Shown: positions 5,982-34,377, counted from the first letter of the stretch. The stretch: DNA of 45,041 bases from Candidatus Tanganyikabacteria bacterium (GCA_016867235.1 VGJY01000011.1:1-45041), one strand, 5' to 3'. Numbers and translations are program-made. Notes: generated by a model not told the origin, from the letters alone.

Positions 5982-5989
5982 GCGCTCCC

Positions 5990-6709: not shown

Positions 6710-6712
6710 CCC

Positions 6713-7102: not shown

Positions 7103-7106
7103 CCCG

Positions 7107-10690: not shown

Positions 10691-10718
10691 CGTTCCCTGA
10701 ATCCAGACCAGCCAGCGG

Positions 10719-11615: not shown

Positions 11616-11678
11616 GACGGCCGCTAGCCTACCACGCGCCCGATCCGCAGGCAATCTCCACCAATGTGTTAAAAGGCC

Positions 11679-11707
11679 TTGATCTCTCCTTTAATTGGAG
11701 ATAATAT
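11679..11707 (+). promoter_or_regulatory. Putative promoter of the S8 peptidase gene
   Basis: TTGATC (11679-11684) and TAATAT (11702-11707) are separated by 17 bases in an AT-rich island within GC-rich DNA, about 64 bases upstream of the chosen start codon. A 5-bp inverted repeat (TCTCC 11685-11689, GGAGA 11697-11701) lies between the two elements and could be an operator. Confidence 0.5.
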
Positions 11708-11770
11708 GAACTGACTCGGATCTTAAATCGGGCTTAATCTACCGGGATGCGTAAAGAAGGAGTCAACTGG

Positions 11771-13066
11771 ATGGCGAACCGTCTGGCCCTCGGCACCCTC
11801 GTCGCCGCTAGCGTCGTGGCCGGGTGTGGTGTCAACCCCGTCGGGCAGGCCCTGCAAAGCGCCATCAAGGACCCCTTCGCCAACCTGATGGACGGCCAGG
11901 CCATCTCGGGCGAGGTCATCGTCCAGCTCAAGCCGGGCGCGGCCCTGCCGAAGGTCGCCGGCGCCAAGCAGGTCAGCGAGATAGACCTCGAAGACCTAGG
12001 CAAGTTCGTGCTCGTCAAGGCCACCGACAAGGGCGCCACCAACCTCGAGAAGGCCTTCTCGCAGCAGCCGATGGTCGCCGGCGTCACGCCCAACCGGGTG
12101 CTCAAGATGCCCATCCCCAAAGCCAAGCCGCCACTGCCCGCGCTGGGCATCCCGACCGACGCCTCGGGCAACGACCCGCTCCGCAGCCAGCAGTGGTACC
12201 TGGATCGCGTCGGCGCCGAGCAGGCCTGGAGCGTGACCGACGGCAAGGGCATCGTGGTCGCCGTCGTGGACACCGGCGTGGATTACACGCATCCCGACCT
12301 CAAGGACCAGGTCGTCGGCAAGGGCCACTCGTTCGTCAACAACCGGCCTGACGGCCTCGACGAGCAGGGCCACGGCACCCACGTCGCCGGCACCATCGCC
12401 GCCCAGTACAACAACAACGAGGGCGTCGTGGGCGTCGCCAAGGGCGCGAAGATCCTGCCGGTGCAGGTGCTGTCGGCGTCGGGCGGCGGCAGCCTCTACT
12501 CGATCGCCCAGGGCATCAAGTACGCCGCCGACTACGGCGTGCAAAACAAGGTGCGCGTGGTGGTCAACCTCTCGCTGGGCGGCGCCGCCACGGTGGACCC
12601 GGTCTCCTACACCACCGGCTGGTACGCCACCGGCAAGGGCGCCCTCCTGGTCGCCGCCGCCGGCAACAGCAATACCGCCGTCGGCACCCCGGCGCGGTGG
12701 GACAAGTACTACATGGCGATCTCGGCGCTCGACGAGAAGGACGAGAAGGCCAACTTCTCGTGCTACGGCCCCGAGATCAGCGTCGGCGCCCCCGGCACCA
12801 ACATCATGGCCACGACGCCGTCGTATGACGTTCCCCTCAACAAGTATGGCTATCCCAAGTGGTACGCCCCTCTCCAGGGCACTTCCATGGCCTGCCCCAT
12901 CGCGGCCAGCGTTTGCGCCCTGACGTGGAGCGTCCACCCCGATTGGAGCTGGAAGCAGGTCCGCCAGCACGTCGAGAAGACCGCCAAGGATCTGGGCAAG
13001 TCCGGCAAGGACGATCACACCGGTTATGGCATCGTTCAGGCGGCCGCCGCGGTCGGCCTGAAGTAG
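11771..13066 (+). CDS. S8 (subtilisin-like) serine peptidase lipoprotein
   Basis: 431-residue subtilase. The start at ATG 11771 is chosen over ATG 11747 because AAGGAG (11757-11762) sits 8 bases ahead of it and the protein then opens with a short signal and lipobox (ASVVAG, C19). A fervidolysin-like propeptide follows (EVIVQLKPG to about residue 115). The catalytic triad is intact: D167 in VVDTGVD, H201 in GHGTHVAG and S372 in GTSMA, with oxyanion Asn in AAAGNSN. It should be lipid-anchored outside the inner membrane. A second, closely similar S8 lipoprotein lies downstream, which suggests tandem duplication. Confidence 0.93.
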   Translation: MANRLALGTLVAASVVAGCGVNPVGQALQSAIKDPFANLMDGQAISGEVIVQLKPGAALPKVAGAKQVSEIDLEDLGKFVLVKATDKGATNLEKAFSQQPMVAGVTPNRVLKMPIPKAKPPLPALGIPTDASGNDPLRSQQWYLDRVGAEQAWSVTDGKGIVVAVVDTGVDYTHPDLKDQVVGKGHSFVNNRPDGLDEQGHGTHVAGTIAAQYNNNEGVVGVAKGAKILPVQVLSASGGGSLYSIAQGIKYAADYGVQNKVRVVVNLSLGGAATVDPVSYTTGWYATGKGALLVAAAGNSNTAVGTPARWDKYYMAISALDEKDEKANFSCYGPEISVGAPGTNIMATTPSYDVPLNKYGYPKWYAPLQGTSMACPIAASVCALTWSVHPDWSWKQVRQHVEKTAKDLGKSGKDDHTGYGIVQAAAAVGLK

Positions 13067-13084
13067 AGATACAGGAGTACGGTA

Positions 13085-13156
13085 ATGCAGCGCAACTGGA
13101 CGACCGACTGGACCCAAGAGCCCATTCGCGATACCAAGATTCGCCTCCCGCTGTAG
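13085..13156 (+). CDS. 23-residue small ORF downstream of S8 peptidase
   Basis: A short ORF beginning MQRNWTTDW and ending in IRLPL. It has a strong ribosome site, AGGAG at 13073-13077, seven bases before the ATG, and begins 18 bases after the S8 peptidase stop. An intrinsic terminator follows 16 bases after its stop. The peptide has two tryptophans, is mostly polar and has no signal or membrane segment. I do not recognise it. It could be a genuine small protein made with the peptidase, or a chance ORF. Confidence 0.5.
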   Translation: MQRNWTTDWTQEPIRDTKIRLPL

Positions 13157-13172
13157 CTCTCGTTTTTGCTCG

Positions 13173-13203
13173 TCACCCTCGCCTCCGGGCGGGGGTGATT
13201 TTC
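13173..13203 (+). terminator. Rho-independent terminator after the S8 gene and small ORF
   Basis: Arms TCACCCTCGCC (13173-13183) and GGCGGGGGTGA (13188-13198) pair with one G-T wobble around a TCCG loop, followed by TTTTC. It separates the first S8 transcript from the second S8 gene. Confidence 0.8.
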
Positions 13204-13290
13204 AATCCGGGCGCGGCAAGATCCGGCCGCGGGAGCCGACAATGTCTTGACAGTCCGACCAAGGCAAAGTTAAGGAAAGACCAAGGCTCC

Positions 13291-14598
13291 TTGCCCAGAC
13301 ACCCCGCCTGGATCCTGCCCCTGCTGGTGGCAGCCGGGTGCGGCGCGCCAGTCAGCAGCGCGGATCGGTTGCCGGTCTCCCAGGACAAGCGGCTGGAGCA
13401 GGTCCCGGACGAAGTCATCGTCAAGTACCGGGCGCCCGAGGGCATGCGGGCCGAGGCGACCATGTTCCCGGAGGACATCGCCCCGACGCGCAAGTACGAC
13501 CTCTTGCCCGAGACCACGCAACTTGACGCCACGAGCTTCGACTCGCGCAACGACACGGTCCTGGTGAAGACCTCGCGGGGCGAGGCCGCCCGGGTCGCCG
13601 CGGCCTACGCGGCCCGGCCGGAGGTCGAGTGGGCCATCCCCAACGCCCGGATCCAGGCGCCCGTGCCCGTGATGCCCGGCCAGCAGCCCGGCACCGGCAT
13701 CCGCTCGACCATTCGCAGCAACGATCCGCTCGTCGCGCAGCAGTGGTATCTCGATCGCATCAACGCCCAGGCCGCCTGGGCCACGAGCACGGGGACCGGC
13801 GTCACCGTCGCCGTGCTGGATACCGGCATCGACGGCGGCCACCCGGATCTGTCGGGCGCCGTGGAGAAGGGCGGCGACTTCATCTCCAAGAGCGACGACA
13901 CCGCCGACAAGCACGGGCACGGCACGCACGTGGCGGGCATCGTGGGCGCCCGCAAGGACAACGGGGTGGGCATCGTGGGCGTGGCGCCCGGCTGCAACCT
14001 CCTGGCCGTGCGCGTCCTGGGCGAGAGCGGGGGCAGCGGCGTCTTCTCGGTGGCCCGCGGCATCAAGGCCGCGGCCGACTACGCCAAGCGCACCAAGAAG
14101 CGCGTGGTGATCAACCTCTCGCTGGGCTCGCGCATGCCCGTCGATCCGGTGGACTTCATGGCCGGGTGGTACGCGACGCGGCAGGGCGCCCTCCTGGTCG
14201 CCGCGGCCGGCAACGAGGGAGGCCCCGTGGGCGTCCCGGCCAAGCACCGCTACTTCATGGCCATCGGCGCCACCGATACCCGCGACGCGCGGGCGTCATT
14301 CTCCAACTTCGGCAGCCAACTGGCGCTCTCGGCGCCCGGCGTGGACATCGTGTCCACCACGCCGACCTACCCGGTGACGATGACCCAGCGCGGCGTGGCG
14401 CAGAACTTCGCGGCCTTGCAGGGCACCAGCATGGCCACTCCCATCGTGTCGGGCGTGGCGGCCCTGGTGTGGTCGAAGCATCCCGACTGGTCGCCGGCCC
14501 AGGTGCGCGATGCGCTCACCAAGGGTGCGAAGAACCTGGGCGACCGCAACCAGTTCGGTGCCGGCCTCGTGGACGCGGCGGCGGCCGTGGCGCCATGA
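13291..14598 (+). CDS. S8 (subtilisin-like) serine peptidase lipoprotein, second copy
   Basis: 435-residue subtilase. The only sensible start is TTG at 13291, giving a very short signal with a lipobox (LLVAAGC, C18). A propeptide-like region (DEVIVKYRAPEG) precedes the catalytic domain. The triad is complete: D177 in VLDTGID, H210 in GHGTHVAG and S380 in GTSMATP, with AAAGNEGG for the oxyanion. A perfect -35 hexamer TTGACA lies at 13247-13252, but the -10 is poor, so the promoter is uncertain. The stop overlaps the start of the PLD-family lipoprotein (ATGA), so the two are translationally coupled. Confidence 0.9.
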   Translation: MPRHPAWILPLLVAAGCGAPVSSADRLPVSQDKRLEQVPDEVIVKYRAPEGMRAEATMFPEDIAPTRKYDLLPETTQLDATSFDSRNDTVLVKTSRGEAARVAAAYAARPEVEWAIPNARIQAPVPVMPGQQPGTGIRSTIRSNDPLVAQQWYLDRINAQAAWATSTGTGVTVAVLDTGIDGGHPDLSGAVEKGGDFISKSDDTADKHGHGTHVAGIVGARKDNGVGIVGVAPGCNLLAVRVLGESGGSGVFSVARGIKAAADYAKRTKKRVVINLSLGSRMPVDPVDFMAGWYATRQGALLVAAAGNEGGPVGVPAKHRYFMAIGATDTRDARASFSNFGSQLALSAPGVDIVSTTPTYPVTMTQRGVAQNFAALQGTSMATPIVSGVAALVWSKHPDWSPAQVRDALTKGAKNLGDRNQFGAGLVDAAAAVAP

Positions 14599-21012: not shown

Positions 21013-21086
21013 GCCCGCTTAGTTCAGTTGGATAGAACGCGACCGTCCTAAGGTTGATGTCGGGGGTTCGAGTCCCTCAGCGGGCG
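21013..21086 (+). tRNA. tRNA-Arg (anticodon CCT)
   Basis: A full cloverleaf can be drawn. The 7-bp acceptor stem (21013-21019 with 21079-21085) is perfect, the D stem GTTC/GAAC has 4 bp, and the 5-bp anticodon stem has one G-U. The loop GTCCTAA places CCT (21047-21049) as anticodon. The variable loop has 5 bases and the T-arm is GGGGG-TTCGAGT-CCCTC. The discriminator is G21086 and CCA is not encoded. It marks the left edge of the accessory region. Confidence 0.95.
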
Positions 21087-21114
21087 CTGGTTTCAGCGAT
21101 TGGTCGAGAGCCTC

Positions 21115-21133
21115 GGTCAACTATTGGTCAACT
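21115..21133 (+). repeat. Short tandem repeat next to tRNA-Arg
   Basis: GGTCAACT occurs at 21115-21122 and 21126-21133 with an 11-base period, and ATTGGTC is repeated at 21099-21105 and 21123-21129. Such short direct repeats beside a tRNA 3' end could be integrase arm sites, but no integrase gene is present to support that. Confidence 0.45.
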
Positions 21134-21191
21134 TGCGGCGCGCTGTCGCAGCAGCGGTCGAACCGGCGAATTCGAAACTTCATGGCGAGAC

Positions 21192-21204
21192 TTGCGGGCA
21201 ACGG
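21192..21204. repeat. 13-base repeat upstream of the MNT gene
   Basis: TTGCGGGCAACGG, containing the small palindrome TTGC-GG-GCAA, lies 27 bases before the MNT start. An identical copy is at 22000-22012 ahead of the GIY-YIG-like gene. It may be an operator shared by the small island genes. Confidence 0.45.
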
Positions 21205-21231
21205 CGCGACCCATGCGGGTAAGGTGAAGTC

Positions 21232-21555
21232 ATGGCAGAGAGCGCGGCGGAGTTCCTCCCGGCGGTCGTTGAGCGCATCGTCAGGAACTTCAAGCCTGAC
21301 CGGATCATCCTGTTCGGCTCGTTCGCGCGCGGTGAGGCCGGGCCGGACAGTGACCTGGATTTGCTGGTTGTGCTGCCCGAGGTCCACCATCGCCGGGACC
21401 AGGCCGTCGCCATCCGCCAGGCGCTGGCGGATCTTCCCGTTTCCAAGGATGTCGTGGTTGCGACGGCCGAGGAGATCGAGCGAGACAGGCACCGGATCGG
21501 GAGCATCATAGGCCCGGCGCTATCCGAGGGTCGCGTCCTGTATGAACGGGATTGA
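21232..21555 (+). CDS. MNT-domain nucleotidyltransferase (antitoxin-type)
   Basis: 107-residue minimal nucleotidyltransferase of the pol-beta superfamily. The signature GSFARGEAGPDSDLDLLV is intact (G29-S30, catalytic acidic residues D41 and D43). Pairs of MNT and HEPN proteins act as toxin-antitoxin modules in which the MNT enzyme can AMPylate and silence the HEPN RNase. Here the HEPN gene overlaps by 14 bases. An AAGGTGA ribosome site precedes the ATG. A defence-related or island-stabilising role is inferred from family knowledge and location. Confidence 0.9.
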   Translation: MAESAAEFLPAVVERIVRNFKPDRIILFGSFARGEAGPDSDLDLLVVLPEVHHRRDQAVAIRQALADLPVSKDVVVATAEEIERDRHRIGSIIGPALSEGRVLYERD

Positions 21556-21946
21556 TCCGGCCGACGACGCGGCACGGTGGCTTCGCTTCGCTCAGGAAGA
21601 CCTCGAAAGCGCGCAGACCATCCTCCGCGAGCAGGGAAGAGCATGGCGGAATGCGTGCTGGCACGCGCTCCAGGCGGCCGAGAAGGCTTGCAAGGCTGTC
21701 CTGGTCCTGAACGGCATCGCGTATCCTCGGACGCACGACCTCGATCGCCTGGTGCTCCTGCTGCCGGCCGAGATGCGAAGCCTGATCGCGGGATCGGATC
21801 TGTCGTGGCTCTCGGAATGGGCGATCGAGAGCCGCTACCCCGGAGACTGGCCCGAGGCGGAGCGGCAGGATGCCGAGCGAGCGATCGCCATCGCGGGACG
21901 GGTGTGCGAGCGCGCCGCGGAGGTGCTCTCCCTTCGTGGCGGATAG
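21542..21946 (+). CDS. HEPN domain protein (toxin-type RNase)
   Basis: 134-residue helical HEPN protein. It has the usual N-terminal WLRFAQEDLESAQ helix, then RNACWHALQAAEKACKAVLV, which contains an R-x4-H motif (R36, H41) of the kind that forms the RNase active site in HEPN dimers, and a later HDLDRL segment. It overlaps the MNT gene, so the two make a classical MNT-HEPN module. The active motif looks intact, so it should be a competent toxin unless modified by its partner. Confidence 0.9.
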   Translation: MNGIDPADDAARWLRFAQEDLESAQTILREQGRAWRNACWHALQAAEKACKAVLVLNGIAYPRTHDLDRLVLLLPAEMRSLIAGSDLSWLSEWAIESRYPGDWPEAERQDAERAIAIAGRVCERAAEVLSLRGG

Positions 21947-21999
21947 AGGTCAGGAGGCAACGGCCCGACGCGGCTTCCCTGATAAGAGATTTGCGAAAT

Positions 22000-22012
22000 T
22001 TGCGGGCAACGG
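22000..22012. repeat. 13-base repeat, second copy
   Basis: TTGCGGGCAACGG identical to 21192-21204, lying 42 bases upstream of the GIY-YIG-like start. The neighbouring sequence differs (AT-richer, TTTGCGAAATTTG), so only the 13 bases are shared. Confidence 0.45.
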
Positions 22013-22054
22013 TGTTGCGGAGAAGCAAGTGCGAAGCACGGATAGTGGTGGACC

Positions 22055-22744
22055 ATGAGCCGCGAGAGCCTCTTGGTGAGGTTTTATGCGATCCTGGACA
22101 GGCTTGAGCAGGTGACTGGCGGCGAGCGAAGGCTATCCGAGTGCTCTGGCCGGATGGACTGGCATCACCGCGGCGTCTACTTCTTCCGTGAGGTCGGGGA
22201 GATGCGCACGCACACAGGAAGCGGCTCGAGGGTTATCCGCGTCGGCACCCACGCACTCAAGGCCGGGTCCAGAACGAGCCTTTGGAAACGCCTATCGCAG
22301 CACAAGGGCCAGGCTGAATCAGGCGGTGGCAATCATCGCGGATCGATTTTCCGCCTCCTCATCGGAGATGCCCTTTTCGCCCGCGATGGAATCAATTCGG
22401 GGACGTGGGGCCAAGGGAATTCTGCTCCACGGGAGGTCCGACAACGCGAGGTCGAGCTTGAGCGCCTGGTGAGCAAAGCGATCGGCGGAATGCCTTTCCT
22501 GTGGCTAGAGATCGGAGACGAGCCGGGGCCCGAAAGCCTTCGCGGAAGTGTGGCGATGCGACCAAGATGCTGTCGAAATCGGACACGGTCTTCATGCTCG
22601 AGGCGCTATTGCGGCGCCATGTCTACGGGCGTCCCCTCGAACTCAAGCGCGAAACTTCCGTCCGCGACGCGGTATTGTTCATTCTTGACTGTCTCGTCGA
22701 GACTGGATCGTCTGCCGCTTTCCGCATGCGCGACGACTTCGTGA
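22055..22744 (+). CDS. GIY-YIG-like nuclease domain protein, C-terminus replaced
   Basis: 229-codon ORF. Residues 1-164 look genuine: a helical start (SLLVRFYAILDRLEQ), then GVYFF (40-44), RVIRVGTHAL (59-68, the YIG-equivalent), LWKRLSQHKG with the conserved Arg, and NHRGSIFRLLIG, consistent with a GIY-YIG endonuclease fold. After EPGPESLRG (about base 22546) the residues become Arg/Ser/Cys-rich and look like out-of-frame translation, while the +1 frame opens into a natural-looking segment (22567-22758). A deletion or fusion at about 22546-22565 has probably removed the native C-terminus. Confidence 0.6.
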   Translation: MSRESLLVRFYAILDRLEQVTGGERRLSECSGRMDWHHRGVYFFREVGEMRTHTGSGSRVIRVGTHALKAGSRTSLWKRLSQHKGQAESGGGNHRGSIFRLLIGDALFARDGINSGTWGQGNSAPREVRQREVELERLVSKAIGGMPFLWLEIGDEPGPESLRGSVAMRPRCCRNRTRSSCSRRYCGAMSTGVPSNSSAKLPSATRYCSFLTVSSRLDRLPLSACATTS

Positions 22745-22758
22745 CGCCCGCGGCCTGA
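22567..22758 (+). pseudogene. Remnant 3' gene fragment in another frame
   Basis: 63 codons starting at ATG 22567 and ending VTPAA. The segment VFMLEALLRRHVYGRPLEL followed by SVRDAVLFILDCLVET and FRMRDDFVTP has normal residue composition and amphipathic helices, whereas the GIY-YIG frame over the same bases does not. I take it as the surviving C-terminus of another gene, or the true C-terminus of the GIY-YIG protein after a frameshift. No family is recognised. Confidence 0.45.
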
Positions 22759-22822
22759 TACAGAACTAGATCGCGGTGGCAATACGGCGCCAAAACCCGA
22801 AGGTGCGTTCGAAACGAAGTGA

Positions 22823-22848
22823 CCCCGCTGGGGGTAGGTAGTCCCCAG
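22823..22848 (+). promoter_or_regulatory. Hairpin in the leader of the three-ATPase operon
   Basis: In the 158-base gap before the operon, CTGGGG (22828-22833) can pair with CCCCAG (22843-22848), or alternatively CCCCGC with the G-run next to it. No T-run follows. It could be an operator or a leader structure; the operon promoter must lie in or before this gap. Confidence 0.35.
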
Positions 22849-22916
22849 GGGGCTTGGACTTCCCGCAGGCTGTAAGATTCTCGCGCTTCCCATCGTTGTC
22901 GTAGACGAGGCACCAC

Positions 22917-25900
22917 ATGAGCAAGCACCTCTCGATCCGACTGCCTTGGCACGACCGTGGGTGGGACGGCCACGTCTGCGATCGCCCGACCGCAAATGCT
23001 TACTGCGCCGGCGAGTTCGGGCTCAAGGCACACGGCATCCGCGAGCTTAAGCGACCGGACACCGAGGAGGGGATGAAGGGCAAGCCAGTTCACGCGTTGC
23101 CCGCCGATGGCTACCTGCCTCCTTGTCTCCGCACGGTGCAAGTCTTCGGCGGGCACAGAGAACTGCCGTTCGAGCATGTGCCCAAGGGATTCCTGTCGAG
23201 CAGCGGCTATCCGATCGATCCCGTAGCCGAGAAGATCCCGCCATACTCGGCAGGGACATGGCCGTACGATCAGGTCTTCCGGGCCAACGGCGCCGGGTCC
23301 GACGTGCCAGCCGAGTTCGAGCACCGCTACGCCCCGGGTGAAGCGCAGCGGAACCTGGCCGAATTTTTCGACGATCGGCTGACCTCTAGACGGTCTCTCG
23401 CGTTCTTCTACCTCAACTACGACAATCCGCTGAACTCCGAGCGCCGCCAGTACGTGCTGGTCGGCGCTGCCGAGATCGACGCCATCAGCCCGCAGTTGCA
23501 CTGGGAAGACATGGACCCGGAACTCGCGCGGACCTACGGGACGATGGTCTGGAACCGGTTCGTCCGCCATGGCTACGGCGACAGACGGGGCACCCGCCTG
23601 CCCTACGATCGCTACCTCCGCGCCGGGCGCGATGCGTCCGGCATACTGGTTGAGGTATCTCCCGACCTCTCCCCCCACTTCAAGTACGTCTGCCGCCACT
23701 TTTCGGATGACGAGGCGGCGATACTGCTCCACGAGCTCGTCGAAGCCCTCGAGCGAGGAAAGGCCGAGGGAGCGGTGGACTGGGACTGGGACGCCCAAAT
23801 CTCCTGGATCAACACGGCGATCGATCGCGCCTGGCATGACCGGGGCGTGTTCCCAGGAATGGGACCGGTCCTCGAGGCCCTCGGGTTCCGCAACGCCACG
23901 CTTTACGTCGAGCGCGAGTTAGTCGCCAAGGGCGTCCCCGACTTTCGGGAACATGTTCGTGCCAGGATTCTCGACCCATCCCTGGAAGCGGACCCTGCAT
24001 TCCAGGCGGAATTCCGGACGATCGCCAACCTTTTTTCTCTCGTGGAACCGACCGTTCTGGACCTGGCTCTCGACCGGCTCTGCCTCTTCGAGCTGACCAC
24101 GTTGCAAGTCAAGCGCATCCTGGGGAACGACTTGGTGCCCGAGGCAGAGCGCGCCAGGGTCGGCCTTGCATCACCTCCCGATCGCATCCTCGCCAATCCT
24201 TATCTCATCCTCGAGGAGTACGACTCGCCCGATCGCGACGACACGATTCCGTTCTACCGGATTGATCATGGCATCTTCCTGGCCAGAGCAAGGGCCCAAA
24301 GTGCCGTACCTGGGCTCGACGAATTCCGCCCGGATGATCCCAGGCGCCTGCGGGCGGCCGCCTTGGACATCCTCCGGATAGCCGAGCTTGCCGGGCACAC
24401 TTTTCTCCCCCAGGACCAGCTCCTGGAGCGCCTCGGGAAGCTACAGCTCCCTGGCTTGCTCGGCCCGGTCGGCGCCGTTACATTCGCGCGCGACCTGAGT
24501 TTCTATCAGGAACGCCTGCACGTACAGCGTGAGGAGCGAAAGGTCGCCTGGCAGCGCCGGGTCACGCACGAGGACGAGGAACTAATTCGTGACCGGATTC
24601 GCAAGCTGCGCGACCGCGCCCTGATCGAGGTCGGGGACATCGACTGGCGAGCCCTGCTGCCAGAGCCCGATCCCCGCCTGCCGCCGGCCATCGCGCACAA
24701 CGTCGCCGCGTCTCAGTCCGAAGCTCTCGGGAGGCTGACTTCCCGCGCCTTTTGCGTCCTGGCCGGGGGGGCGGGTACAGGCAAGACGACCGTGATCGCC
24801 ACGCTCATCAAAGGGCTCGTCAACGGTGGCGAGAAGTTCGTCCTGCTTGCGCCCACCGGCAAAGCGGCCGTCCGAATGAAGCGGAAGATCAAGGACGTGG
24901 CAGGCTTGGCACTCGAACCGAGGACCATCCACAGCTACCTCGCCTCGGGCAACTGGCTCGACCTTGAGACCTTCCGACTCCGGCGAGAGGGCCTCCCAAT
25001 CCTCGACGGTGCGTCCACGGTCGTCATCGACGAGTGCTCGATGCTCGACACACGCCTGCTGGCTACGGTCGTTCGCGCCCTTGATTGGCGCATCGTGAGG
25101 CGGTTGATCCTGGTGGGCGATCCGCAGCAATTGCCACCCATTGGCCTGGGCGCGCCGTTCCGAAATCTCGTGGACATGCTCGCGGCGATCGAGCCCCGGG
25201 TTCCCGACCTATGCGAGCTAACGGTCAACTGCCGGCAAATCCAGGAAGATAGTACCGCCTTGGCCCTGGCGGAGGTCTTTTCGGGCCGCTGCGACCGTCT
25301 CGGTGGAGACGAAATCCTCGAGCTGGTCAGGGCCGGGGGCCGCGTGGGTGCCGACTTGACAGTACGCTTCTTCGCAGACGAGACTGACTTGCCTGACGCA
25401 CTCGGCCGGTGCCTGCTCGAGGCCCTCTCCGATCTGCAGGAAGGACAGAACGCGGGACAGGTCGACCACAACCGTCCCTGGGAGGCCTTCGATAGGCTGC
25501 ATCGCTGGTCGGGCAACCACTCGGAGATTCGCTTCGATGCGCTGGAGGTCCTCAGCCCCTACCGAGCCGGCTTCTTCGGATCCGACGCGCTCAATGCTCA
25601 CCTCCAGCGGTTGCTGCGGAGCCGGTTGCTCGAGGACCGATCCCAGGTCAAGCTCGGAAAGCCGTCGGGACGCCGCTACGTCGCCCCCGACAAGGTCCTC
25701 CAGGTCAAAAACACGCGAATCTCCGTCCGCGCCGGCCTGGCCTACGATGCCGCCACCCGGTCCAACGTCGAGGCATTCATAGCGAACGGGGAGCTCGGAA
25801 AGGTCGGCAAGATCGGCAAGCTGCGAGGCAAGAAGGTCGCGTGGACCCGTTTCGAGATGCAGCCGGAACTTTCCATCACCGTTGACGAGGCCTGGGCCGA

Positions 25901-26564
25901 AACCGAGCTGGAGCTCGGATATGCGATGACGGTTCACAAAGCGCAAGGCTCGGACTTCGGAGGCATCATCCTGGTCATCCCGCGAGAAGACCGCCAGCGA
26001 ATGCTAAGCCGGGAGCTGCTTTATACGGCGCTCACGCGCTTCAAGGAACGGCTCTACATCCTGATCCAGGGACCACCGGGCGACATCGGCCCGCTCTTTC
26101 GTGGTAGCTGGCTAGGCGCGTCGGATCTACTGCGCCGGCATACATCGCTCTACGGCTTGCGCGAAGCCCTGCCCGACCTGGAGGACTTCCGTCCTGAAGA
26201 GCGCATCCATCGCGCGCTCGGCGGCGAACTGGTCCGGTCAAAGTCGGAGGCCCTGATCGCCAACGAGCTCTTCCACGCCGGCGTCCCCTTCTATTACGAG
26301 AAGGCCCTGGTGGCGCCTGACGGGTCCATTCGCCGGCCGGACTTTACTATCCCGATCGAGACACCGCGTGGGCCGGCGGTCCTGTACTGGGAGCATTGGG
26401 GAATGCTCGACGACCCCGGCTATGCTGCAAAGGCCGAGCGCCGCAGGCAGTGGTATCACGACCACGATTTCGGTGCAACCCTCATCGAGACGGACGAGCG
26501 GGGAGGATTCGATTCGACTTCGATCCGGCGTATCATCGCCGAGCGCGTCAACCGGGAGGAGTAG
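22917..26564 (+). CDS. RecD-like SF1B helicase with C-terminal PD-(D/E)XK-like nuclease
   Basis: 1215-residue protein, first of three in the operon; GAGG lies 6 bases before the ATG. Residues 1 to about 600 form an unrecognised region opening with IRLPWHDRGWDGHVC. Next comes a superfamily-1B helicase: Walker A GGAGTGKTT near 617, Walker B VVIDECSMLD near 702, motif III GDPQQLPPI, and the late motif AMTVHKAQGSDF near 1003 followed by LLYTALTRF. The C-terminus (about 1100-1215) has SEALIANEL, RRPDFTI and YWEHWG, matching the E, D and E positions of a RecB-type nuclease, though the last normally reads E-x-K. It probably unwinds and cuts DNA. The next start codon is one base past the stop. Confidence 0.85.
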   Translation: MSKHLSIRLPWHDRGWDGHVCDRPTANAYCAGEFGLKAHGIRELKRPDTEEGMKGKPVHALPADGYLPPCLRTVQVFGGHRELPFEHVPKGFLSSSGYPIDPVAEKIPPYSAGTWPYDQVFRANGAGSDVPAEFEHRYAPGEAQRNLAEFFDDRLTSRRSLAFFYLNYDNPLNSERRQYVLVGAAEIDAISPQLHWEDMDPELARTYGTMVWNRFVRHGYGDRRGTRLPYDRYLRAGRDASGILVEVSPDLSPHFKYVCRHFSDDEAAILLHELVEALERGKAEGAVDWDWDAQISWINTAIDRAWHDRGVFPGMGPVLEALGFRNATLYVERELVAKGVPDFREHVRARILDPSLEADPAFQAEFRTIANLFSLVEPTVLDLALDRLCLFELTTLQVKRILGNDLVPEAERARVGLASPPDRILANPYLILEEYDSPDRDDTIPFYRIDHGIFLARARAQSAVPGLDEFRPDDPRRLRAAALDILRIAELAGHTFLPQDQLLERLGKLQLPGLLGPVGAVTFARDLSFYQERLHVQREERKVAWQRRVTHEDEELIRDRIRKLRDRALIEVGDIDWRALLPEPDPRLPPAIAHNVAASQSEALGRLTSRAFCVLAGGAGTGKTTVIATLIKGLVNGGEKFVLLAPTGKAAVRMKRKIKDVAGLALEPRTIHSYLASGNWLDLETFRLRREGLPILDGASTVVIDECSMLDTRLLATVVRALDWRIVRRLILVGDPQQLPPIGLGAPFRNLVDMLAAIEPRVPDLCELTVNCRQIQEDSTALALAEVFSGRCDRLGGDEILELVRAGGRVGADLTVRFFADETDLPDALGRCLLEALSDLQEGQNAGQVDHNRPWEAFDRLHRWSGNHSEIRFDALEVLSPYRAGFFGSDALNAHLQRLLRSRLLEDRSQVKLGKPSGRRYVAPDKVLQVKNTRISVRAGLAYDAATRSNVEAFIANGELGKVGKIGKLRGKKVAWTRFEMQPELSITVDEAWAETELELGYAMTVHKAQGSDFGGIILVIPREDRQRMLSRELLYTALTRFKERLYILIQGPPGDIGPLFRGSWLGASDLLRRHTSLYGLREALPDLEDFRPEERIHRALGGELVRSKSEALIANELFHAGVPFYYEKALVAPDGSIRRPDFTIPIETPRGPAVLYWEHWGMLDDPGYAAKAERRRQWYHDHDFGATLIETDERGGFDSTSIRRIIAERVNREE

Positions 26565-26565
26565 G

Positions 26566-29500
26566 TTGTCTGCCGTGCAAGCCGCCTATCACGTGGGCCA
26601 GGTGGTGAGTCTCCGGGCCGATCCGGCTCGGCAGGGCCCGATCATCGAGGTGATCGCAGGACCCAGCGGTCGCCCCCGATATCGGGTCTTCCACTCGGCC
26701 ACCGAGATCCGCGAATACGGCGAAGACCAGATCGTGGTTATCGAGACGCCCAAAGGCGCCAGGAACCTTCTGGCCGCGATGCGATCCGGCAGCTGGCTCG
26801 ATCCGCGCACCTTCGCCGCTCGGCTCTCGGCGCACCGGATCGCGAGCCCGCTACTCGACAACGTCTATGCGCTCCATGCGGCACGTATCCAGTTCATCCC
26901 CTTCCAGTTCAAGCCCTTGCTGCGGCTCTTGCGCGCCGATCGGCCGCGCATTCTCGTTGCCGACGAAGTCGGGGTCGGCAAGACGATCGAGGCCGGACTG
27001 ATCCTCAAGGAGCTCGAGACACGCGGGCGGCTCGACAGCGCCATCATCGTCTGCCCCAAGGCCCTCGTACACAAGTGGCGCACGGAGATGAAACGGTTCG
27101 ACGAGGACTTCGCCGTCCTTGATGGCAAGACCCTCAGGTACTGCATCGACGAAACGCATCGCGACGGCGTCTGGCCTGTCCTGTATGCGAGGGCCATCGT
27201 CCACCTTGAGCTTCTCCGGATGGAAGACTACACGGACGATAAGACCGGTAGGCGCCCGACTCCGGGGCTGTTCACCTTGGACCCGCCGCCGGCCTTCTCG
27301 GTAGTGGTCGTGGACGAGGCGCACCATCTGCGGACACCTGCGACCCGGTCATTTAACGTCGCGAAATTCCTGTCGGACGTCGCAGAGACCGTTGTCTTCC
27401 TTTCCGCTACACCAGTACAGCTAGGTGCCCAGAACCTCTTCGCCCTTTTACACCTCCTGCGGCCGGACCTCTACCAGGATGAGGCCTCTTTTCGCGAGAT
27501 GCTCGCGCCCAACGCCGCGCTCACGCGGGCGATGCGCCACATCCGGAGCAAGTCCCCCGAAGGCGATTGGGGCCGTCAGGCACTCAACGCCCTGCAAGTC
27601 GCCGAGGCGACGGCCTGGGGTAGCCGGGTGCTTCCGAAGAACCCCCGGTTCGCCACGTGGCGACAGCGCCTGGCCGAAGTCCAGCCCATCTCGGATGGAG
27701 AGCGCGTCCGTTGCCTGCGCGATCTGGAAGAAGTCCACACCCTGGCACACATCGTCAACCGCACCAGGCGCCGTGACATCGGGCGCTTTACAATACGTGA
27801 GCCCCACACAATTACGGTCCCATTCACCGCGCACCAACAGGCGCTTTACGACGCACTCATCGCCTTCCGCCGGGATGTCCTCACGCTCAGGCACGGTGCG
27901 AGAGTCGCCCGCCTGGTGATAGACACTATCGAGCGCCAGGCCGCCAGTTGCCTCCCGGCTTTGCTGCCGGCCATCCGGAGTCTCGTCAGCGCGGGGAAGC
28001 TCGATCTGGGCTCTCTCGGGGACGACATCGATCTCGAGGTCGAGGAAGGCGATCCCTCCGAAATTCCGGGCAATTTGCTCGCGCGCGCCGACCAGTTGGC
28101 CTCGCTTTGCGAGAGTCTCCCTCCAGAGGATCCAAAGCTTGACCGGCTCTCAGAAATCGTTTCCGCGACCCTCTCCGGGCCGGGTTCGGGCAAGGTCCTG
28201 GTGTTCTCGTTCTTCTTACACACCCTGCGCTATCTCGAGCGGCACCTGGCCGCTCGCGGCCACCGAGTGGCCATCGTCGCAGGCTGGGTCCCGGATGAGG
28301 ATCGCGAGAGGCTACGGGACCGGTTCAGGTTGCCTCGGGAGCACACCGACGCCCTTGACGTCCTGCTCTCGTCGGAAGTGGGCTGCGAGGGTCTCGACTA
28401 CGAGTTCTGCGACCGGTTGGTCAACTACGACATCCCCTGGAATCCCATGCGCGTCGAGCAGCGCATCGGCCGCATCGACCGCTTCGGACAGGGCAGCGAG
28501 AAGGTACTGGTGTTCAACTTCGTCACACCGGGAACCGTCGAGGAGCGAATCTTCTTTCGCTGCTTCGAGCGACTGGGCATCTTCCGCGACACCCTGGGAG
28601 ATCTCGAAGAGGTGCTCGGCGAGGCGAAGCTGGTCGAAAGCCTGGCGCAGCTTGCCCAGGACACCTCTCTTACGCCGGATCAGGCGGACGCGAAAGCACA
28701 CCAGCTCACGGATAACGTGCTCCGAGTCGCCGAGGAACAGCGCCGCCTTGAGGAGGAGGGCAGGGATTTGCTCGGCCTCGATGACACATTCCTCCAGGAC
28801 ATCGCCACCCTGGAGGCTTCGGGCCGGACGGTCTCCGCGGCAGACCTGCGTGCTCTCGTGGGCTCGTTCGTCGAGCAGCCGGAGCTTGGGGGCAAAGTCT
28901 CTCCGGATCCGCAGCAAGACGGCGTATACCGCATCCGGCTCAACAAGGAGGCGCGCAAGATCCTCCACGACCACTTGCGCGTTCTGAAGCCGGCGACCCG
29001 GCAACGCGCCGAGCTTTTGCGCTGGCTAGACGGGGCCGAGCCAAGCCTGGCGGTGGTCTTCACGCAAGACGCCGCGATTCGCCACCGCCAGCTGCCCTTC
29101 ATCACACCGGCCCATCCGCTGGCCAAGCTAGCCACCAACCACTGGCTCAATGCTACTGAGCCCCTGGCAGCGTCGCTGCAAGTCAACTCGGATCGCCTGC
29201 CCGCGGGCCGCTTCCTGTTCATGTGCGAGATGTGGGAGGTCATCGCTCTCCGGCCCGAAACGCGGTTAGTGACGCGGGCGATTGACCTGTCGACCCGACA
29301 ACCTGCACCTGCCGCCGCTCAAGCTCTGGTGGGACTCATCAGTGAGGCGCTCTCTGTCGCTCTGCCGGCCACGCCTCCCGCCGACGAAGACTGGCGCCTA
29401 CTCGAGACGCAAGCCGAAAAGGAACTGGAAGGGGAACTCGCTCGCCTCGGCAAGGAGAACGAAGTCCTAGTCTCCCAACACCTCGCCGCCCTCGAGGCCT

Positions 29501-29700
29501 ATTACCCCGCTCGGCTTGCGCGGCTGGCAGACGAGGCGGCAGCTCAGAAGGATCCGCGCATCGTGCGTATGAAACAGGCCGAGCTGCGGCGTCTCGGGAG
29601 CGAGTTCGAGGAGCGCAAAGTAGAAGTCGAATCCAGGCGAAGGGCGGACATCGTATCCCAGCGCGTCGCCGCGGGTGTTCTGGAGGTCGCCAATGGCTAG
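26566..29700 (+). CDS. SNF2/RapA-type superfamily 2 helicase
   Basis: 1044-residue DNA translocase. The start is TTG at 26566, six bases after GGAGG and one base past the upstream stop. An N-terminal beta-barrel-like segment (HVGQVVSLRADPARQGPIIEV) resembles the SH3-like head of RapA-type proteins. Helicase motifs: ADEVGVGKTIEAGLIL near 132-147, VVVDEAHHLR near 247-256, LSATPVQ near 277-283, and SSEVGCEGLD with QRIGRIDRFGQ near 602-642. The C-terminal third is helical and charged with coiled-coil potential. Related SNF2 helicases (for example DrmD) serve in anti-phage systems. It overlaps the next gene by 8 bases. Confidence 0.88.
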   Translation: MSAVQAAYHVGQVVSLRADPARQGPIIEVIAGPSGRPRYRVFHSATEIREYGEDQIVVIETPKGARNLLAAMRSGSWLDPRTFAARLSAHRIASPLLDNVYALHAARIQFIPFQFKPLLRLLRADRPRILVADEVGVGKTIEAGLILKELETRGRLDSAIIVCPKALVHKWRTEMKRFDEDFAVLDGKTLRYCIDETHRDGVWPVLYARAIVHLELLRMEDYTDDKTGRRPTPGLFTLDPPPAFSVVVVDEAHHLRTPATRSFNVAKFLSDVAETVVFLSATPVQLGAQNLFALLHLLRPDLYQDEASFREMLAPNAALTRAMRHIRSKSPEGDWGRQALNALQVAEATAWGSRVLPKNPRFATWRQRLAEVQPISDGERVRCLRDLEEVHTLAHIVNRTRRRDIGRFTIREPHTITVPFTAHQQALYDALIAFRRDVLTLRHGARVARLVIDTIERQAASCLPALLPAIRSLVSAGKLDLGSLGDDIDLEVEEGDPSEIPGNLLARADQLASLCESLPPEDPKLDRLSEIVSATLSGPGSGKVLVFSFFLHTLRYLERHLAARGHRVAIVAGWVPDEDRERLRDRFRLPREHTDALDVLLSSEVGCEGLDYEFCDRLVNYDIPWNPMRVEQRIGRIDRFGQGSEKVLVFNFVTPGTVEERIFFRCFERLGIFRDTLGDLEEVLGEAKLVESLAQLAQDTSLTPDQADAKAHQLTDNVLRVAEEQRRLEEEGRDLLGLDDTFLQDIATLEASGRTVSAADLRALVGSFVEQPELGGKVSPDPQQDGVYRIRLNKEARKILHDHLRVLKPATRQRAELLRWLDGAEPSLAVVFTQDAAIRHRQLPFITPAHPLAKLATNHWLNATEPLAASLQVNSDRLPAGRFLFMCEMWEVIALRPETRLVTRAIDLSTRQPAPAAAQALVGLISEALSVALPATPPADEDWRLLETQAEKELEGELARLGKENEVLVSQHLAALEAYYPARLARLADEAAAQKDPRIVRMKQAELRRLGSEFEERKVEVESRRRADIVSQRVAAGVLEVANG

Positions 29701-32700
29701 CGATTACGACGCCATCCGGCAGCGGAACATCAAGGCTTATGGCGAGGAGACGCGCCACCTCGCGTTTCTCGGTAGGCTTTACGTCGATCGGTCTCACTTT
29801 ATCTTTGAGTTGCTCCAGAATGCCGAAGACGCTCAGGCCACGAGCATCGAGTTCAACCTCGCGCCCGATCATCTGGAAGTCTTACATGACGGCCGGCGCA
29901 TCTTCTCGGAGAAGGACGTCATCGGCATCTGCGGCGTCCAGGAAGGCACCAAGGCCGAGGACCTACTGCAGATCGGCAAATTCGGTATCGGATTCAAGTC
30001 CGTCTACGCCTACACGACTCGGCCCGAGATCTATGGCGGTGACGAACACTTCTGCATCGAGCACTACGTGCGGCCCCACGCAATCCCGGCCAAGAAGGTT
30101 CCGGCCCCTTGGACCACGCGCTTTGTCTTCCCATTCAATCAGGACAAGATGGCTGCGTCTCAGGCCAATCGGGAAATCCGGGATAGACTCCTGTCTCTCT
30201 CGCCCCGGACGCTCTTGTTTCTACGCAACCTGCGACGGCTTTCGTGGCGTGCCGAGCGGGGAGATCAGGCAAGTATCGCCAGAACTGACGAGAAGTCCGA
30301 GGAAACCTTGAGGTGGGTCAAGGTGGAAAGGTCTGGCGTAGGGCCGAAAGATGCAGAGAGGTGGCTATTAGCGTCCCGCCCAGTCTCGTTTCCGTCCGGA
30401 GATGCGGTCGGGGCTGTCGAGGCCGCATTCCTCCTGGAGGTCGACAAGAAGGGACGAGTCGGGATCTCACCCGCTGCGGACACCGAGTTGGTCGTCTTCT
30501 TTCCGACTGGGCTGTCGACCGGGCTTGGTTTCCTAATTCACGGTCCTTACGTCACGACGCCGGCGCGAGACAACATTCCCAAGGACGACACCTGGAACCG
30601 AAAACTAGTCGACGAGACGGCGACGCTTTGCGTGGACACCTTGTTTTCGCTTCGCGATCTTGGCCTTATGTCGGTAGGCCTGCTAGAGGCGCTACCCATC
30701 CGGGCGGGGGATTTCCGCCCAGGGAGCATGTTCCGGCCTCTGTATGATCACGTGCGGCAAGCCCTCAAGGAGGAGCCGTTGCTTCCTGCGGCCGAGGGAG
30801 GGTACGTTCCCGGCAAACGTGCCCGGCTCGCGCGTTCGGCTGATCTGACAAAGCTCGTATCGCCACGACAGCTAGGAAGGCTTCTCGATAAGTCGGTGGA
30901 CATCCACTGGTTGATTCCTGACATCACCAGGGACCGCACGCCCGAGGTCTTTAGGTATCTAGTCGGGGAGACCGTTCACGTCGATGGCAAGCCGCGGCGC
31001 GTGGAGCCAATGGCGGATGGCATGGACATCGACTCCGAAACGTTTGTCCGCAGGCTCGCGCCTGCATTCCTTGCCGAGCAGGACGACCGCTGGATTGGGC
31101 ACCTTTATGCCTTCTTCAACGGCCAGCGCTCCTTGTGGAAAATGCTCAAGACAAAGCCATTCGTAAGGCTCCAGAGCGGCATCCACGTCGTGCCTTTCTC
31201 CCCCGATGGGCGACCTCAGGTCTTCCTGTCCAAGGCCGTCCGGACGACTTTACCCGTGGCCAAACCCGAGACCTACGCCAAGAAGGAAGCCGAGCTGTTC
31301 TTGCGCGAGTTTGGCATCACCGAACCTGACGCGACGGACGAGGTAAACGAGGCCGTGATCCCCTGTTACGGACCGGATGCTCAGCCGATTGACGCCGAGC
31401 AGAACCTCGCGGACGTCGAGGCTATCATTGAGGCGGTCAATGTAGCAGGGGGAGAGCGAAAGGCGAGACTCATCGAACGCCTCCGTGCGACAGCCTTCCT
31501 CGTGGGCGTTGACGGGGCTGGAGAATCGGAGCGTTATTGCTCCCCGAGCGAGCTTTACGGCCGCACTCCCGAGCTAGAGGAGTTTTTCGCAGGGAACACA
31601 GGGGTTTGGTTCCTCCATGACCGCTACCGGAAGTACCAGGCTACACTACGTGAACTGGGCGTCCGCTCCGAAGTACGAATCACGCTGCAGGAGCCTGATG
31701 CCACCGGGTATGTCATTCGGGCTGTCGGGGCAAGGGTCGAACGGGGCCGGGACGGATTCGACTGGCGCTGCACAGTCGAGGGGGTCGAGCATGCGGTCGC
31801 AAGTCCGACGCCTGAGAGGAGCATGTTTATCTGGAACCGTCTGCTGGTGCGCCTCAAGGCACAGATCACCGGCACTGTCGAAGTCTCGCAGCGGGGTGCT
31901 CCGAACGAGAAGATTTCGAGGCCGTCGGATCTGGGCCACATCGTTCGAAAAGGCCGCTGGATCCCGTTGCGCGGCTCGTTTGTCCGCCCCGAGGATCTCC
32001 ACATAAAGAAACTCCCCGCTGGCTGGCTGCCTGACGAAGATCTAGCCAGCGCGCTTGGGATGCGAATCGAGGACGCCGACTCAGGTGACGAAGACGACCA
32101 GATGGATCCGATAGACAAACTCGCGCTCGAGGCGGAGGTCGACGCCTACGACATCCGGTTCATCAAGGCCCATCGAGCCGAGTTTGAACGATTTCGGCGC
32201 CGGCTAGAGCGGCAAGCCTCGGAAGGCCAATCGAACGAGAACGCGGCCGACCTGGAGGCGGATGTGCTACCGGTGGACTTCGTCGAGGCGCTTTCCGAAT
32301 CGTTCAATCGGCCCGGTGTCGACGGCGCTCACGATCCTGAACGCGGCCAGCCGAAAGCGCCGGTCCCAAACCCGGAGTTCCGGCGGAGCCGGGTCGCCGA
32401 GGGCTTGGCCGCCCAGCGTAGGGCTGAGCCTTCGCGAGAGTCACGCCAACGGCTCATTGTTGTTCGGGAGTGGGAGCCAAAGAACGAAGCGGTGCGTGTG
32501 TTTCTCGAGAAGGAATACGACGGCCTCTGCCAGATTTGCGGAGATGGCTTTGTCAAGTGGAGCGGCCACCCCTACTTCGAGGGCGTCTATCTCGTTTCAT
32601 ACACCAAGGCCGGATGGCTAGACAACGAAGGCAATGTGCTTTGTCTCTGCGCAACCTGCTCGGCCAAGTTCCAGCACGGGTCCGTTTGGGCACCTGATCT

Positions 32701-32863
32701 CATACGGCAGATCGAGACGTGGCGAGCCCAGGGTGAGGGCGGGGCCGACCCGCCCAAGATACGCTTGGAACTATGTAGTGCCCCTGCTGAAATCAGATTC
32801 ACGGAACGCCACATGATTTCCCTTCAAGAGTTACTGAAGCAACAAGCGGCTTTGAGCGAGTAA
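29693..32863 (+). CDS. Sacsin-type GHKL ATPase with C-terminal zinc domain
   Basis: 1056-residue protein; ATG 29693 is chosen for the GGAGG six bases upstream and the overlap with the helicase gene. The N-terminus is a sacsin/Hsp90-like GHKL ATPase: FIFELLQNAEDAQAT (N box, about 36-50), HDGRRIF, and IGKFGIGFKSVYAYT (G2 box, about 95-109). A long middle region (200-880) has no recognised domain. The last about 130 residues have CQIC (946-949) and CLCATC (about 983-988) with FQHG, a four-cysteine zinc site resembling HNH nucleases, but the catalytic histidine segment reads VYLVS. Probably a nucleotide-driven conformational switch of the system. Confidence 0.87.
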   Translation: MASDYDAIRQRNIKAYGEETRHLAFLGRLYVDRSHFIFELLQNAEDAQATSIEFNLAPDHLEVLHDGRRIFSEKDVIGICGVQEGTKAEDLLQIGKFGIGFKSVYAYTTRPEIYGGDEHFCIEHYVRPHAIPAKKVPAPWTTRFVFPFNQDKMAASQANREIRDRLLSLSPRTLLFLRNLRRLSWRAERGDQASIARTDEKSEETLRWVKVERSGVGPKDAERWLLASRPVSFPSGDAVGAVEAAFLLEVDKKGRVGISPAADTELVVFFPTGLSTGLGFLIHGPYVTTPARDNIPKDDTWNRKLVDETATLCVDTLFSLRDLGLMSVGLLEALPIRAGDFRPGSMFRPLYDHVRQALKEEPLLPAAEGGYVPGKRARLARSADLTKLVSPRQLGRLLDKSVDIHWLIPDITRDRTPEVFRYLVGETVHVDGKPRRVEPMADGMDIDSETFVRRLAPAFLAEQDDRWIGHLYAFFNGQRSLWKMLKTKPFVRLQSGIHVVPFSPDGRPQVFLSKAVRTTLPVAKPETYAKKEAELFLREFGITEPDATDEVNEAVIPCYGPDAQPIDAEQNLADVEAIIEAVNVAGGERKARLIERLRATAFLVGVDGAGESERYCSPSELYGRTPELEEFFAGNTGVWFLHDRYRKYQATLRELGVRSEVRITLQEPDATGYVIRAVGARVERGRDGFDWRCTVEGVEHAVASPTPERSMFIWNRLLVRLKAQITGTVEVSQRGAPNEKISRPSDLGHIVRKGRWIPLRGSFVRPEDLHIKKLPAGWLPDEDLASALGMRIEDADSGDEDDQMDPIDKLALEAEVDAYDIRFIKAHRAEFERFRRRLERQASEGQSNENAADLEADVLPVDFVEALSESFNRPGVDGAHDPERGQPKAPVPNPEFRRSRVAEGLAAQRRAEPSRESRQRLIVVREWEPKNEAVRVFLEKEYDGLCQICGDGFVKWSGHPYFEGVYLVSYTKAGWLDNEGNVLCLCATCSAKFQHGSVWAPDLIRQIETWRAQGEGGADPPKIRLELCSAPAEIRFTERHMISLQELLKQQAALSE

Positions 32864-33333
32864 TGGCGCTCTTTGGCGACAAGCCAGGGTGTTGATCGCC
32901 GACCAAGCCCAACTCGCGGTGGACAGGGACGTTGTGCTCGTGAAAGCTCGGCGAGCCGGCTCAAGCTACCTCCCTTCCTGATCACTTAACCTGGATATCG
33001 AAGTTCGAAACTCGTCCCGCTGCCCGCGCTAGGCGAAGCAAGGCGGCAAGCCGTTCCGGAGAGTCGTGACTTCTCGGCGATTGAGCGCGTGGCGGCTTTG
33101 CCGGCCGGCCGGCCTCGCGCTTGCCGATCCGGCGATGCCTGCGGCGTTCGGGCTTGCGTTGCTCATCCATCGACGGCCTCCGCTCCCGATCGCAAAGGGC
33201 TGGGACGACGATCGGACGCTGGCGATCGTCCGGCACGTCGGGGGGACGCCACCAAGCCAGGAGTGGGGGGGCCGTGCGGACTCCGGTGCACTCGCATCGC
33301 GTTTCAATCCCTCGGGGACTCGCACCGGTTCCG
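32864..33333 (+). other. 470-base non-coding stretch at the island's right end
   Basis: No gene is supported. ORFs here (for example minus 32982-33236, 84 codons, Arg-rich) lack a ribosome site and recognisable motifs. No clear copy of the tRNA-Arg 3' end is found, so the right attachment site remains undefined. Base composition changes back toward the GC-rich flanks within this stretch, which suggests the island ends here. Confidence 0.5.
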
Positions 33334-34377
33334 CTACCGGTTCGCGCCTACTCCTCCCACCAGGAAGCCGCGCACGATCGCGGTCACCTTGGCCAGCGAC
33401 ACCGGATCGGGATTCTCGCGGAAGTGGATCATCGGGTGGGGCACGCGTTCGGCGGCCGGGAAGTGGTAGTGGGCGTTGCGCGTGGCGCCGCCGGCCCTGC
33501 GATACAGCTCCCGGATGGGCTCCTCGGCCGCCACGTCGTCGGCGCCGGTGCTGACTAGCTGGAGCGGCGTCCGGATGCGATCGGCCTTGGCGAGGACATC
33601 CTGCCCGAACGTCAGCAGGCCGTAAACGTTGCCCACTTTCATGTCCCAGTGTCCCGGCCGGCCCCAGGCGCGCGCGGCCGGCCGGCCGGCCTCGCCCCAG
33701 GAGAATGGCATGGTATCGAGCCACGCGCCGCCGCCGGTGCCGGTGACGAAGTCGATGAATCGGGCCAGGCCGACGCCCAGCCGCGCGTCGCCGCCAACGG
33801 GGCTCAGGAAGGGCGCGATCAGCACCGCCCGCGCCACGTCGGGGTGGGCCTCCAGGATGGCCATGGCCACGTCGGCGCCGGCCGAGAATGCCAGTACCGA
33901 GATCGGTCCACCCAGGGTCGCGGCGGTGCGGTACACGGACTCGGCAAACTCGTGGTACCGCGGCCACTCGGCCGCCTCGAGCAGCCGGCTGGAATCTTCC
34001 TCGTCATCCTCCCGCTGATAGCCGTGGCCGACCAGGCGGGCGGCGTACACGTCGTGGCCGGCCGCATGCAGCATCGGCCCGAGCGCATCGAACTGCCAGG
34101 TGCCGGCCGAGTAGCCATGCAGCAGGATGACGACGCCCCGCTCAGCCGGCCGCGCGACATGCCGCCAGACCACGGTCTCGCAGCCGCGCTGGATGCCGGC
34201 GGCGCGCTCGGCCGAAATCACCTCCCGAACGGCCGCCGGCAACGCCTCCGGGCTGGTGACGCTGGTCGGATCGGGGCCGGGCCAGACGTAGGTCCCCCGC
34301 GGGCTGGCGGCGCCGACCGCGGGAGCGGCCGCCATGGAGACCACCAGCAAGGCGGCCGCCGCTTTCGAGACCTTCAT
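33334..34377 (-). CDS. Secreted alpha/beta hydrolase
   Basis: 347-residue exported protein with a clear signal peptide (AAAALLVVSMAAAPAVGAAS). Alpha/beta-hydrolase landmarks: oxyanion HGYSAGTWQF after VVILL, nucleophile Ser in LAFSAGADVA (elbow reads A-F-S-A-G), acid Asp in STGADDVAAEE, and a probable His in VPHPMIHF near the C-terminus. It looks like a carboxylesterase or monoglyceride-lipase-like enzyme acting in the periplasm; the substrate is unknown. It starts 6 bases after the TPR-protein stop, so the two form an operon. Confidence 0.85.
   Translation of the reverse strand: MKVSKAAAALLVVSMAAAPAVGAASPRGTYVWPGPDPTSVTSPEALPAAVREVISAERAAGIQRGCETVVWRHVARPAERGVVILLHGYSAGTWQFDALGPMLHAAGHDVYAARLVGHGYQREDDEEDSSRLLEAAEWPRYHEFAESVYRTAATLGGPISVLAFSAGADVAMAILEAHPDVARAVLIAPFLSPVGGDARLGVGLARFIDFVTGTGGGAWLDTMPFSWGEAGRPAARAWGRPGHWDMKVGNVYGLLTFGQDVLAKADRIRTPLQLVSTGADDVAAEEPIRELYRRAGGATRNAHYHFPAAERVPHPMIHFRENPDPVSLAKVTAIVRGFLVGGVGANR

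Follow-up and report, generated by a model that had tools for sequence, protein, structure and literature searches.

Two adjacent genes, encoding a DrmD/RapA-like SNF2 ATPase (P2) and a sacsin/Hsp90-type GHKL ATPase (P3), form a conserved core that recurs across many bacterial phyla and is also found in an archaeon, on plasmids and on a viral contig; to this core a gene for a helicase–nuclease (P1) is an optional addition. In the window, which denotes the whole 45,041-nucleotide stretch of Candidatus Tanganyikabacteria bacterium DNA that was analysed, the three genes are intact open reading frames on the + strand (22917–32863), free of internal stops. The first-pass annotation had described three large frames of 1215, 1044 and 1056 residues, the junctions being a spacing of one base and an overlap of eight, and these coordinates were reproduced. 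The single base between P1 and P2 is real, P2 being read from a TTG start at 26566 behind GGAGGAG, although the mechanical P2 reading frame extends back to a GTG at 26368; the 8-base overlap is that of P2 with P3. The features of the locus are as follows.

21013–21087, tRNA-Arg, upstream of P1–P3
21232–21555, + strand, MNT gene, MntA-like at 40.5 bits, under the cutoff; a neighbour, outside the system
21542–21946, + strand, HEPN gene (PF05168, 1.1e-24), forming a toxin–antitoxin-type pair with MNT; a neighbour, outside the system
22055–22744, + strand, GIY-YIG-like gene, matching PDC-M57B at 177.5 bits over residues 1–166 of 229; a neighbour
22917–26564, + strand, P1, 1215 residues, ATG start, TAG stop
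24705–26066, + strand, SF1B helicase core of P1 (residues 597–1050), motifs GGAGTGKT, DECSMLD, GDPQQLPPIG and VHKAQGSD
26208–26501, + strand, putative PD-(D/E)XK-like nuclease of P1 (residues 1098–1195), motifs RSKSE, YE, PDFT and WEHxG
26566–29700, + strand, P2, 1044 residues, TTG start
29693–32863, + strand, P3, 1056 residues, ATG start
29777–30058, + strand, GHKL nucleotide pocket of P3 (residues 29–122), with E39, N43, D46 and GKFGIGFKS
32480–32677, + strand, degenerate HNH domain (McrA/TagI-like) of P3 (residues 930–995)
33334, ordinary hydrolase, downstream of P3, assigned by domain search

The genetic context proposed earlier was largely borne out, the tRNA-Arg gene, the MNT–HEPN pair and the GIY-YIG-like gene all being present, but the last matches its family over 166 residues only. 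Beyond approximately residue 166 it departs from the family and, on frame comparison, an alternative frame stays open to about 22758, so the gene is probably decayed (truncated) or recombinant. A nucleotidyltransferase–HEPN pair, such as the one at 21232–21946 beside tRNA-Arg, is the make-up of PDC-M05 (PMC12988326). The chromosomal genes flanking the island encode an HD-domain protein, GH57 and GcpE. The GC content of the P1–P3 island is 0.60–0.65, against 0.685–0.70 in the flanking genes, a difference that favours a defence core. No second copy of the tRNA-Arg 3′ end was found anywhere in the window with up to three mismatches allowed, and tRNA-mediated integration is therefore not shown.

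P2 matches the PADLOC DrmD model PDLC02623 over nearly its full length (440 bits), scores 329 bits against the NCBIfam DISARM_DrmD model, which is under the cutoff of 610, and 198 bits against RapA, which is also its nearest structure in the PDB. All SNF2 motif residues tested are invariant across 23 loci. A degenerate restriction-enzyme fold has been described for RapA and BrxHII (PMC12839542), and by analogy P2 may carry one as well.

P3 is matched in Pfam and NCBIfam by sacsin models only, P_loop_sacsin (84.7 bits, cutoff 50) and SACS among them, and its AlphaFold2 model (pLDDT 82) matches the folds of Hsp90 and of sacsin SR1. With the sacsin N-terminal model and the GHKL boxes present, the protein is a sacsin/Hsp90-type GHKL ATPase, in which residues E39, N43, D46, G95, G98, G100, K102 and R292 are invariant across 23 loci. 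The C-terminal domain gives profile matches to EcoKMcrA (6ghc, 1.1e-6) and TagI (6ghs, 1.4e-4), with which the single-sequence search agrees. Of the domain assignments made in the first pass, the RecD-type helicase with a nuclease tail, the RapA/SNF2 protein and the sacsin GHKL protein all hold in outline, whereas the ‘zinc tail’ of P3 is this degenerate HNH domain. Cysteines 946, 949, 986 and 989 are present in the P3 of the window, and the zinc cysteines are lost in one subgroup of orthologues. The catalytic histidine positions of the HNH pattern are not histidine in any of 23 orthologues, so the domain is dead, and P3 was rejected as an active nuclease of the McrA/TagI kind despite the similarity; the dead domain has probably been retained for DNA binding. 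A tree of P3 N-terminal regions labelled by partner places the SNF2-associated proteins to one side, where 17 others are mixed in with them and support is low (0.125), and hence no clade is claimed for them.

By sequence, P1 belongs over its full length to PDC-S68, a phage-defence candidate in PADLOC, matching at 849.5 bits from residues 1–1209 to model positions 1–1199 of 1202. It also matches RecD2 (223 bits), AAA_30, AAA_19 and UvrD_C_2 in Pfam and NCBIfam, and the nearest folds to its weak AlphaFold2 model (pLDDT 64) are RecD2 (3gpl/3gp8) and the RecD subunit of RecBCD. The helicase motif residues are invariant in alignments of 7 and 10 sequences. Motifs RSKSE, YE, PDFT and WEHxG, invariant among 10 homologues, give the C-terminus the pattern of a PD-(D/E)XK-like nuclease, a fold read here from the motifs; this region also shows a partial match to PDC-S69. 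The N-terminal approximately 590 residues are uncharacterised, with W11, H12, C21, C30 and C70 conserved. Residues 1–70 (22917–23126) contain the conserved pattern H..R..WHD.GW.G..C..P..N..C together with C70, possibly a metal site.

P2 and P3 are adjacent and co-directional, with P2 upstream, in 27 loci besides the window, mostly overlapping or separated by a few bases. These comprise 25 loci from one automatic tally, a viral contig (L100) and a further genome locus (L196), and were drawn from a contig scan with P3, plasmid matches, an IMG/VR match (L100) and L196. Their carriers include Chloroflexota, Nitrospirae, Planotetraspora, Dadabacteria, Calothrix, Acidobacteria (Terriglobia), Desulfobacter, Latescibacterota, Methylomicrobium, Zetaproteobacteria, Phycisphaerales, Bacteroidales, Rhizobiaceae plasmids and Methanomethylovorans. 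Because it recurs in 27 other loci, the pairing is beyond chance. In the tally, 18 of the 21 full-length P3 matches have a P2 match beside them; two of the remaining three (L015 and L040) have their start at a contig end or close to one, and the third, L030, is without P2. Distances among P2 and P3 sequences are moderately correlated (Mantel r = 0.51, p = 0.0005, n = 23 loci), as under co-inheritance, against which it counts that the nearest relatives of P2 (50–52%; L018, L020 and L027) differ from those of P3.

Several loci depart from the simple two-gene arrangement. A related gene of approximately 203–239 residues sits between P2 and P3 in L013, L024 and L028, and one of approximately 177–210 residues lies directly before P2 in the Rhizobiaceae loci L005, L010 and L011; those tested have no Pfam match. 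One SNF2 gene is followed by two tandem sacsin-like genes in L021 (6058–13123), and four Chloroflexota loci (L039, L046, L049 and L071) carry a sacsin-like gene and then a more distant DrmD-like SNF2 gene (approximately 300 bits to P2). A second conserved group is organized around a sacsin-like GHKL protein of approximately 1,100 residues and contains a GajB/UvrD-like helicase (approximately 975 residues), a type III-like methyltransferase (approximately 640 residues) and a protein of approximately 900–940 residues that is REase_III-like in L052 and without a PADLOC match in L066. It is represented by L066 (2207–13213), L045, L048, L052, L053, L055, L059, L060, L062, L067, L073, L079, L080 and L082, and its helicase and methyltransferase clusters are common to approximately 26 loci.

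P1 adjoins the pair in 3 of the 28 loci: the window itself, where it comes first; L023 (13085+), from a Syntrophobacteraceae MAG, where it follows P3; and L100, which was found by a P1 search and in which P1 directly follows the pair (genes at 2896–6486, 6461–9709 and 9959–13711). The order in the latter two is thus changed relative to the window. Among 23 genomes that contain the pair, a full-length P1 is present beside it in one (G395) and elsewhere in another (G386). The three-gene unit of fixed order envisaged by the first-pass annotation does not stand, since P1 is missing from most pair loci and its position varies; what recurs is P2–P3, with P1 occurring alone or with other restriction–modification operons. 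Plasmids and genomes without the pair carry P1 in L002, L006–L009, L185–L188 and L101–L103, where its partners are type IIG enzymes (L006, L185), HsdR (L101–L103) or SNF2 proteins (L002, L185, L188), L008 being without such a partner. Two SF1 helicase–nucleases unrelated to P1 take a similar place: one of the TM0106/AAA_12 type adjoins the pair in L005, and a UvrD–PDDEXK protein lies one gene away from it in L003. An SF1 helicase–nuclease of one of these three families thus accompanies the pair in 5 of 28 loci, a small sample which suggests that the effector slot beside P2–P3 is exchangeable. Such a partner is not obligatory, as many pair loci have no recognizable helicase–nuclease neighbour.

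Known defence genes are frequent around the pair. Type I restriction–modification systems are found next to it in L016, L019 and L023, PDC-S02 in L019 and L100, and Azaca ZacB/ZacC in L029, where an extra reading frame separates P2 from P3; other neighbours are Lamassu LmuB (L010), a DruE-like helicase (L027), HEC-05 (L018) and a DndH-like protein (L057). This company is suggestive of a defence role, and the earlier view of a defence-type locus whose neighbourhood recurs in unrelated genomes is upheld by it and by the further pair loci. The distribution is patchy: of 584 genomes, a sample that includes two (G000 and G395) picked because they carry the genes, 7 carry P3 and 5 carry P1. P3 was absent from all 145 sampled relatives of the window, and a search of E. 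coli complete genomes for close relatives gave no near match. In phage records, no single place covered 80% of the P1 query, and P3 gave two weak fragments only.

We put at about an even chance the reading that P2–P3 is a two-gene core defending against invading DNA, to which P1 has been added in this lineage as an effector helicase–nuclease. The intact ATPases P2 and P3 are without a recognized active nuclease and P1 supplies one, from which we infer a mechanism of translocation, gating and degradation. If the proteins are antiviral and act as a complex, P2 would travel as an SNF2 translocase on double-stranded foreign DNA, either unmodified or replicating; P3, as an ATP-driven dimer like Hsp90 or MutL, would close on the engaged DNA and switch the complex on, a gating role already proposed for it in the first pass; and P1, as a RecD2-like 5′–3′ SF1B helicase with its PD-(D/E)XK-like tail, would then unwind and degrade the DNA. 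In loci without P1, host nucleases may act instead, or the pair may block DNA without cutting it. The absence of a modification gene from the island counts against such a defence core, because nothing there accounts for self/non-self discrimination. A broader form of the proposal, possible but doubtful, is that P2–P3 is an undescribed and widespread two-gene system in which a clamp of the Hsp90/sacsin type, its HNH domain dead, would license an SNF2 translocase, served by exchangeable SF1 effectors (PDC-S68, UvrD–PDDEXK and TM0106-type).

The presence of P1 in plasmids and genomes that lack the pair, its absence from most pair loci and the single-gene status of PDC-S68 in PADLOC would be expected if P2–P3 were a complete system and P1 an independent defence gene that landed alongside, sharing transcription but not mechanism. 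This is a real possibility, though we place it short of even chances: P1 lies on the same strand as the pair in three loci, at distances of 1, 27 and approximately 250 bases; its presence in only 5 of 584 genomes makes repeated adjacency unlikely by chance; and its usual company of helicase or restriction–modification operons looks like recruitment. RecD2, RapA/SNF2 and MutL/Hsp90-like GHKL folds also occur in the housekeeping maintenance of DNA or RNA polymerase, and P1–P3 could on that ground be a DNA-repair or replication-restart module, which is unlikely given the very patchy distribution, the copies on plasmids and a viral contig, and the restriction–modification and other defence genes nearby. 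It is very improbable that the operon belongs, as a fragment or a subtype, to a system already named, either DISARM, whose DrmD P2 matches over nearly its full length, or Tiamat, whose TmtA the P3 N-terminus matches at 164 bits; P2 falls under the NCBIfam DrmD cutoff, DrmA, DrmB, DrmC and a methyltransferase are absent from the island, and P3 matches TmtA over approximately 370 of 1056 residues, without the rest of the 1300–1780-residue models.

Each part of the locus resembles something known, P2 being DrmD-like, P3 TmtA-like and P1 a PDC-S68 protein. A PADLOC comparison, proposed as a check in the first pass, accordingly gives a full-length assignment for P1, with the DrmD match for P2 and a partial TmtA match for P3 (163.9 bits). 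DISARM membership was rejected on the score of P2 against the NCBIfam cutoff; none of DrmA, DrmB, DrmC, DrmM or a methyltransferase is found among the annotated reading frames of the island (from the tRNA at 21013 to 33334), and P2 instead has a GHKL partner. Tiamat membership was likewise rejected, the best TmtA model covering only residues 29–399 of P3: the sacsin-like N-terminal approximately 400 residues are shared, but the remaining approximately 650 are without a TmtA match and include a different C-terminal domain, and P3 has a constant SNF2 partner. PDC-S68 is a single-gene entry in PADLOC, whereas P1 here shares an operon with the pair; PDCs were identified by guilt-by-embedding and for the most part await validation (PMC12988326), and a search of open-licence papers turned up no anti-phage experiment on PDC-S68. 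BrxHII of BREX type 3, BREX-related systems and ARMADA also contain RapA-like SNF2 helicases of approximately 940–1050 residues, which ARMADA pairs with a UvrD-type helicase, and neither GHKL nor Hsp90 proteins appear in the papers on them (PMC12839542, PMC12458937). The PglX-like methyltransferase, BrxC, PglZ and YprA helicase of those systems are absent here. GHKL and Hsp90 are also unmentioned in the Dnd reappraisal (PMC10853773).

The first-pass annotation placed a GHKL protein beside SNF2 helicases and nucleases outside the core systems known to defence, but the arrangement has a precedent: restriction-type operons of MORC and paraMORC GHKL proteins with an SF2 helicase (including SWI2/SNF2) and an HNH or restriction-enzyme-fold nuclease were predicted by Iyer et al. 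in 2008. These proteins were expected to work on DNA through conformational changes powered by ATP, and MORC was given a specific motif, GhXhhpXXRhl, in its S5 domain (PMC2292703). The combination of a GHKL protein and an SF2 helicase in one operon is shared by P2–P3 in 28 loci; the differences are that P3 is sacsin-type with a fused degenerate HNH domain, that the island has no methyltransferase and that the accompanying nuclease is the SF1 RecD-like fusion P1. The general kind (GHKL, SF2 helicase and nuclease) had therefore already been predicted, and the SNF2–sacsin pair itself is apparently unnamed: profile libraries and the open-licence literature yielded no name for the pair or for the three-gene combination, so that the claim of an undescribed system is to that extent supported for the combination and fails for P1, which is catalogued as PDC-S68.

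No mechanism for sacsin-like proteins of bacterial immunity was found in the open-licence literature, and if P2–P3 does defend its hosts, it would reveal the way in which ATPases of the Hsp90/sacsin type act in that setting. The proposal, if true, would also place PDC-S68 as an effector common to several restriction-type systems. The pair has been kept from an archaeon to Cyanobacteria, so that a single laboratory-strain test would bear on a large number of genomes.
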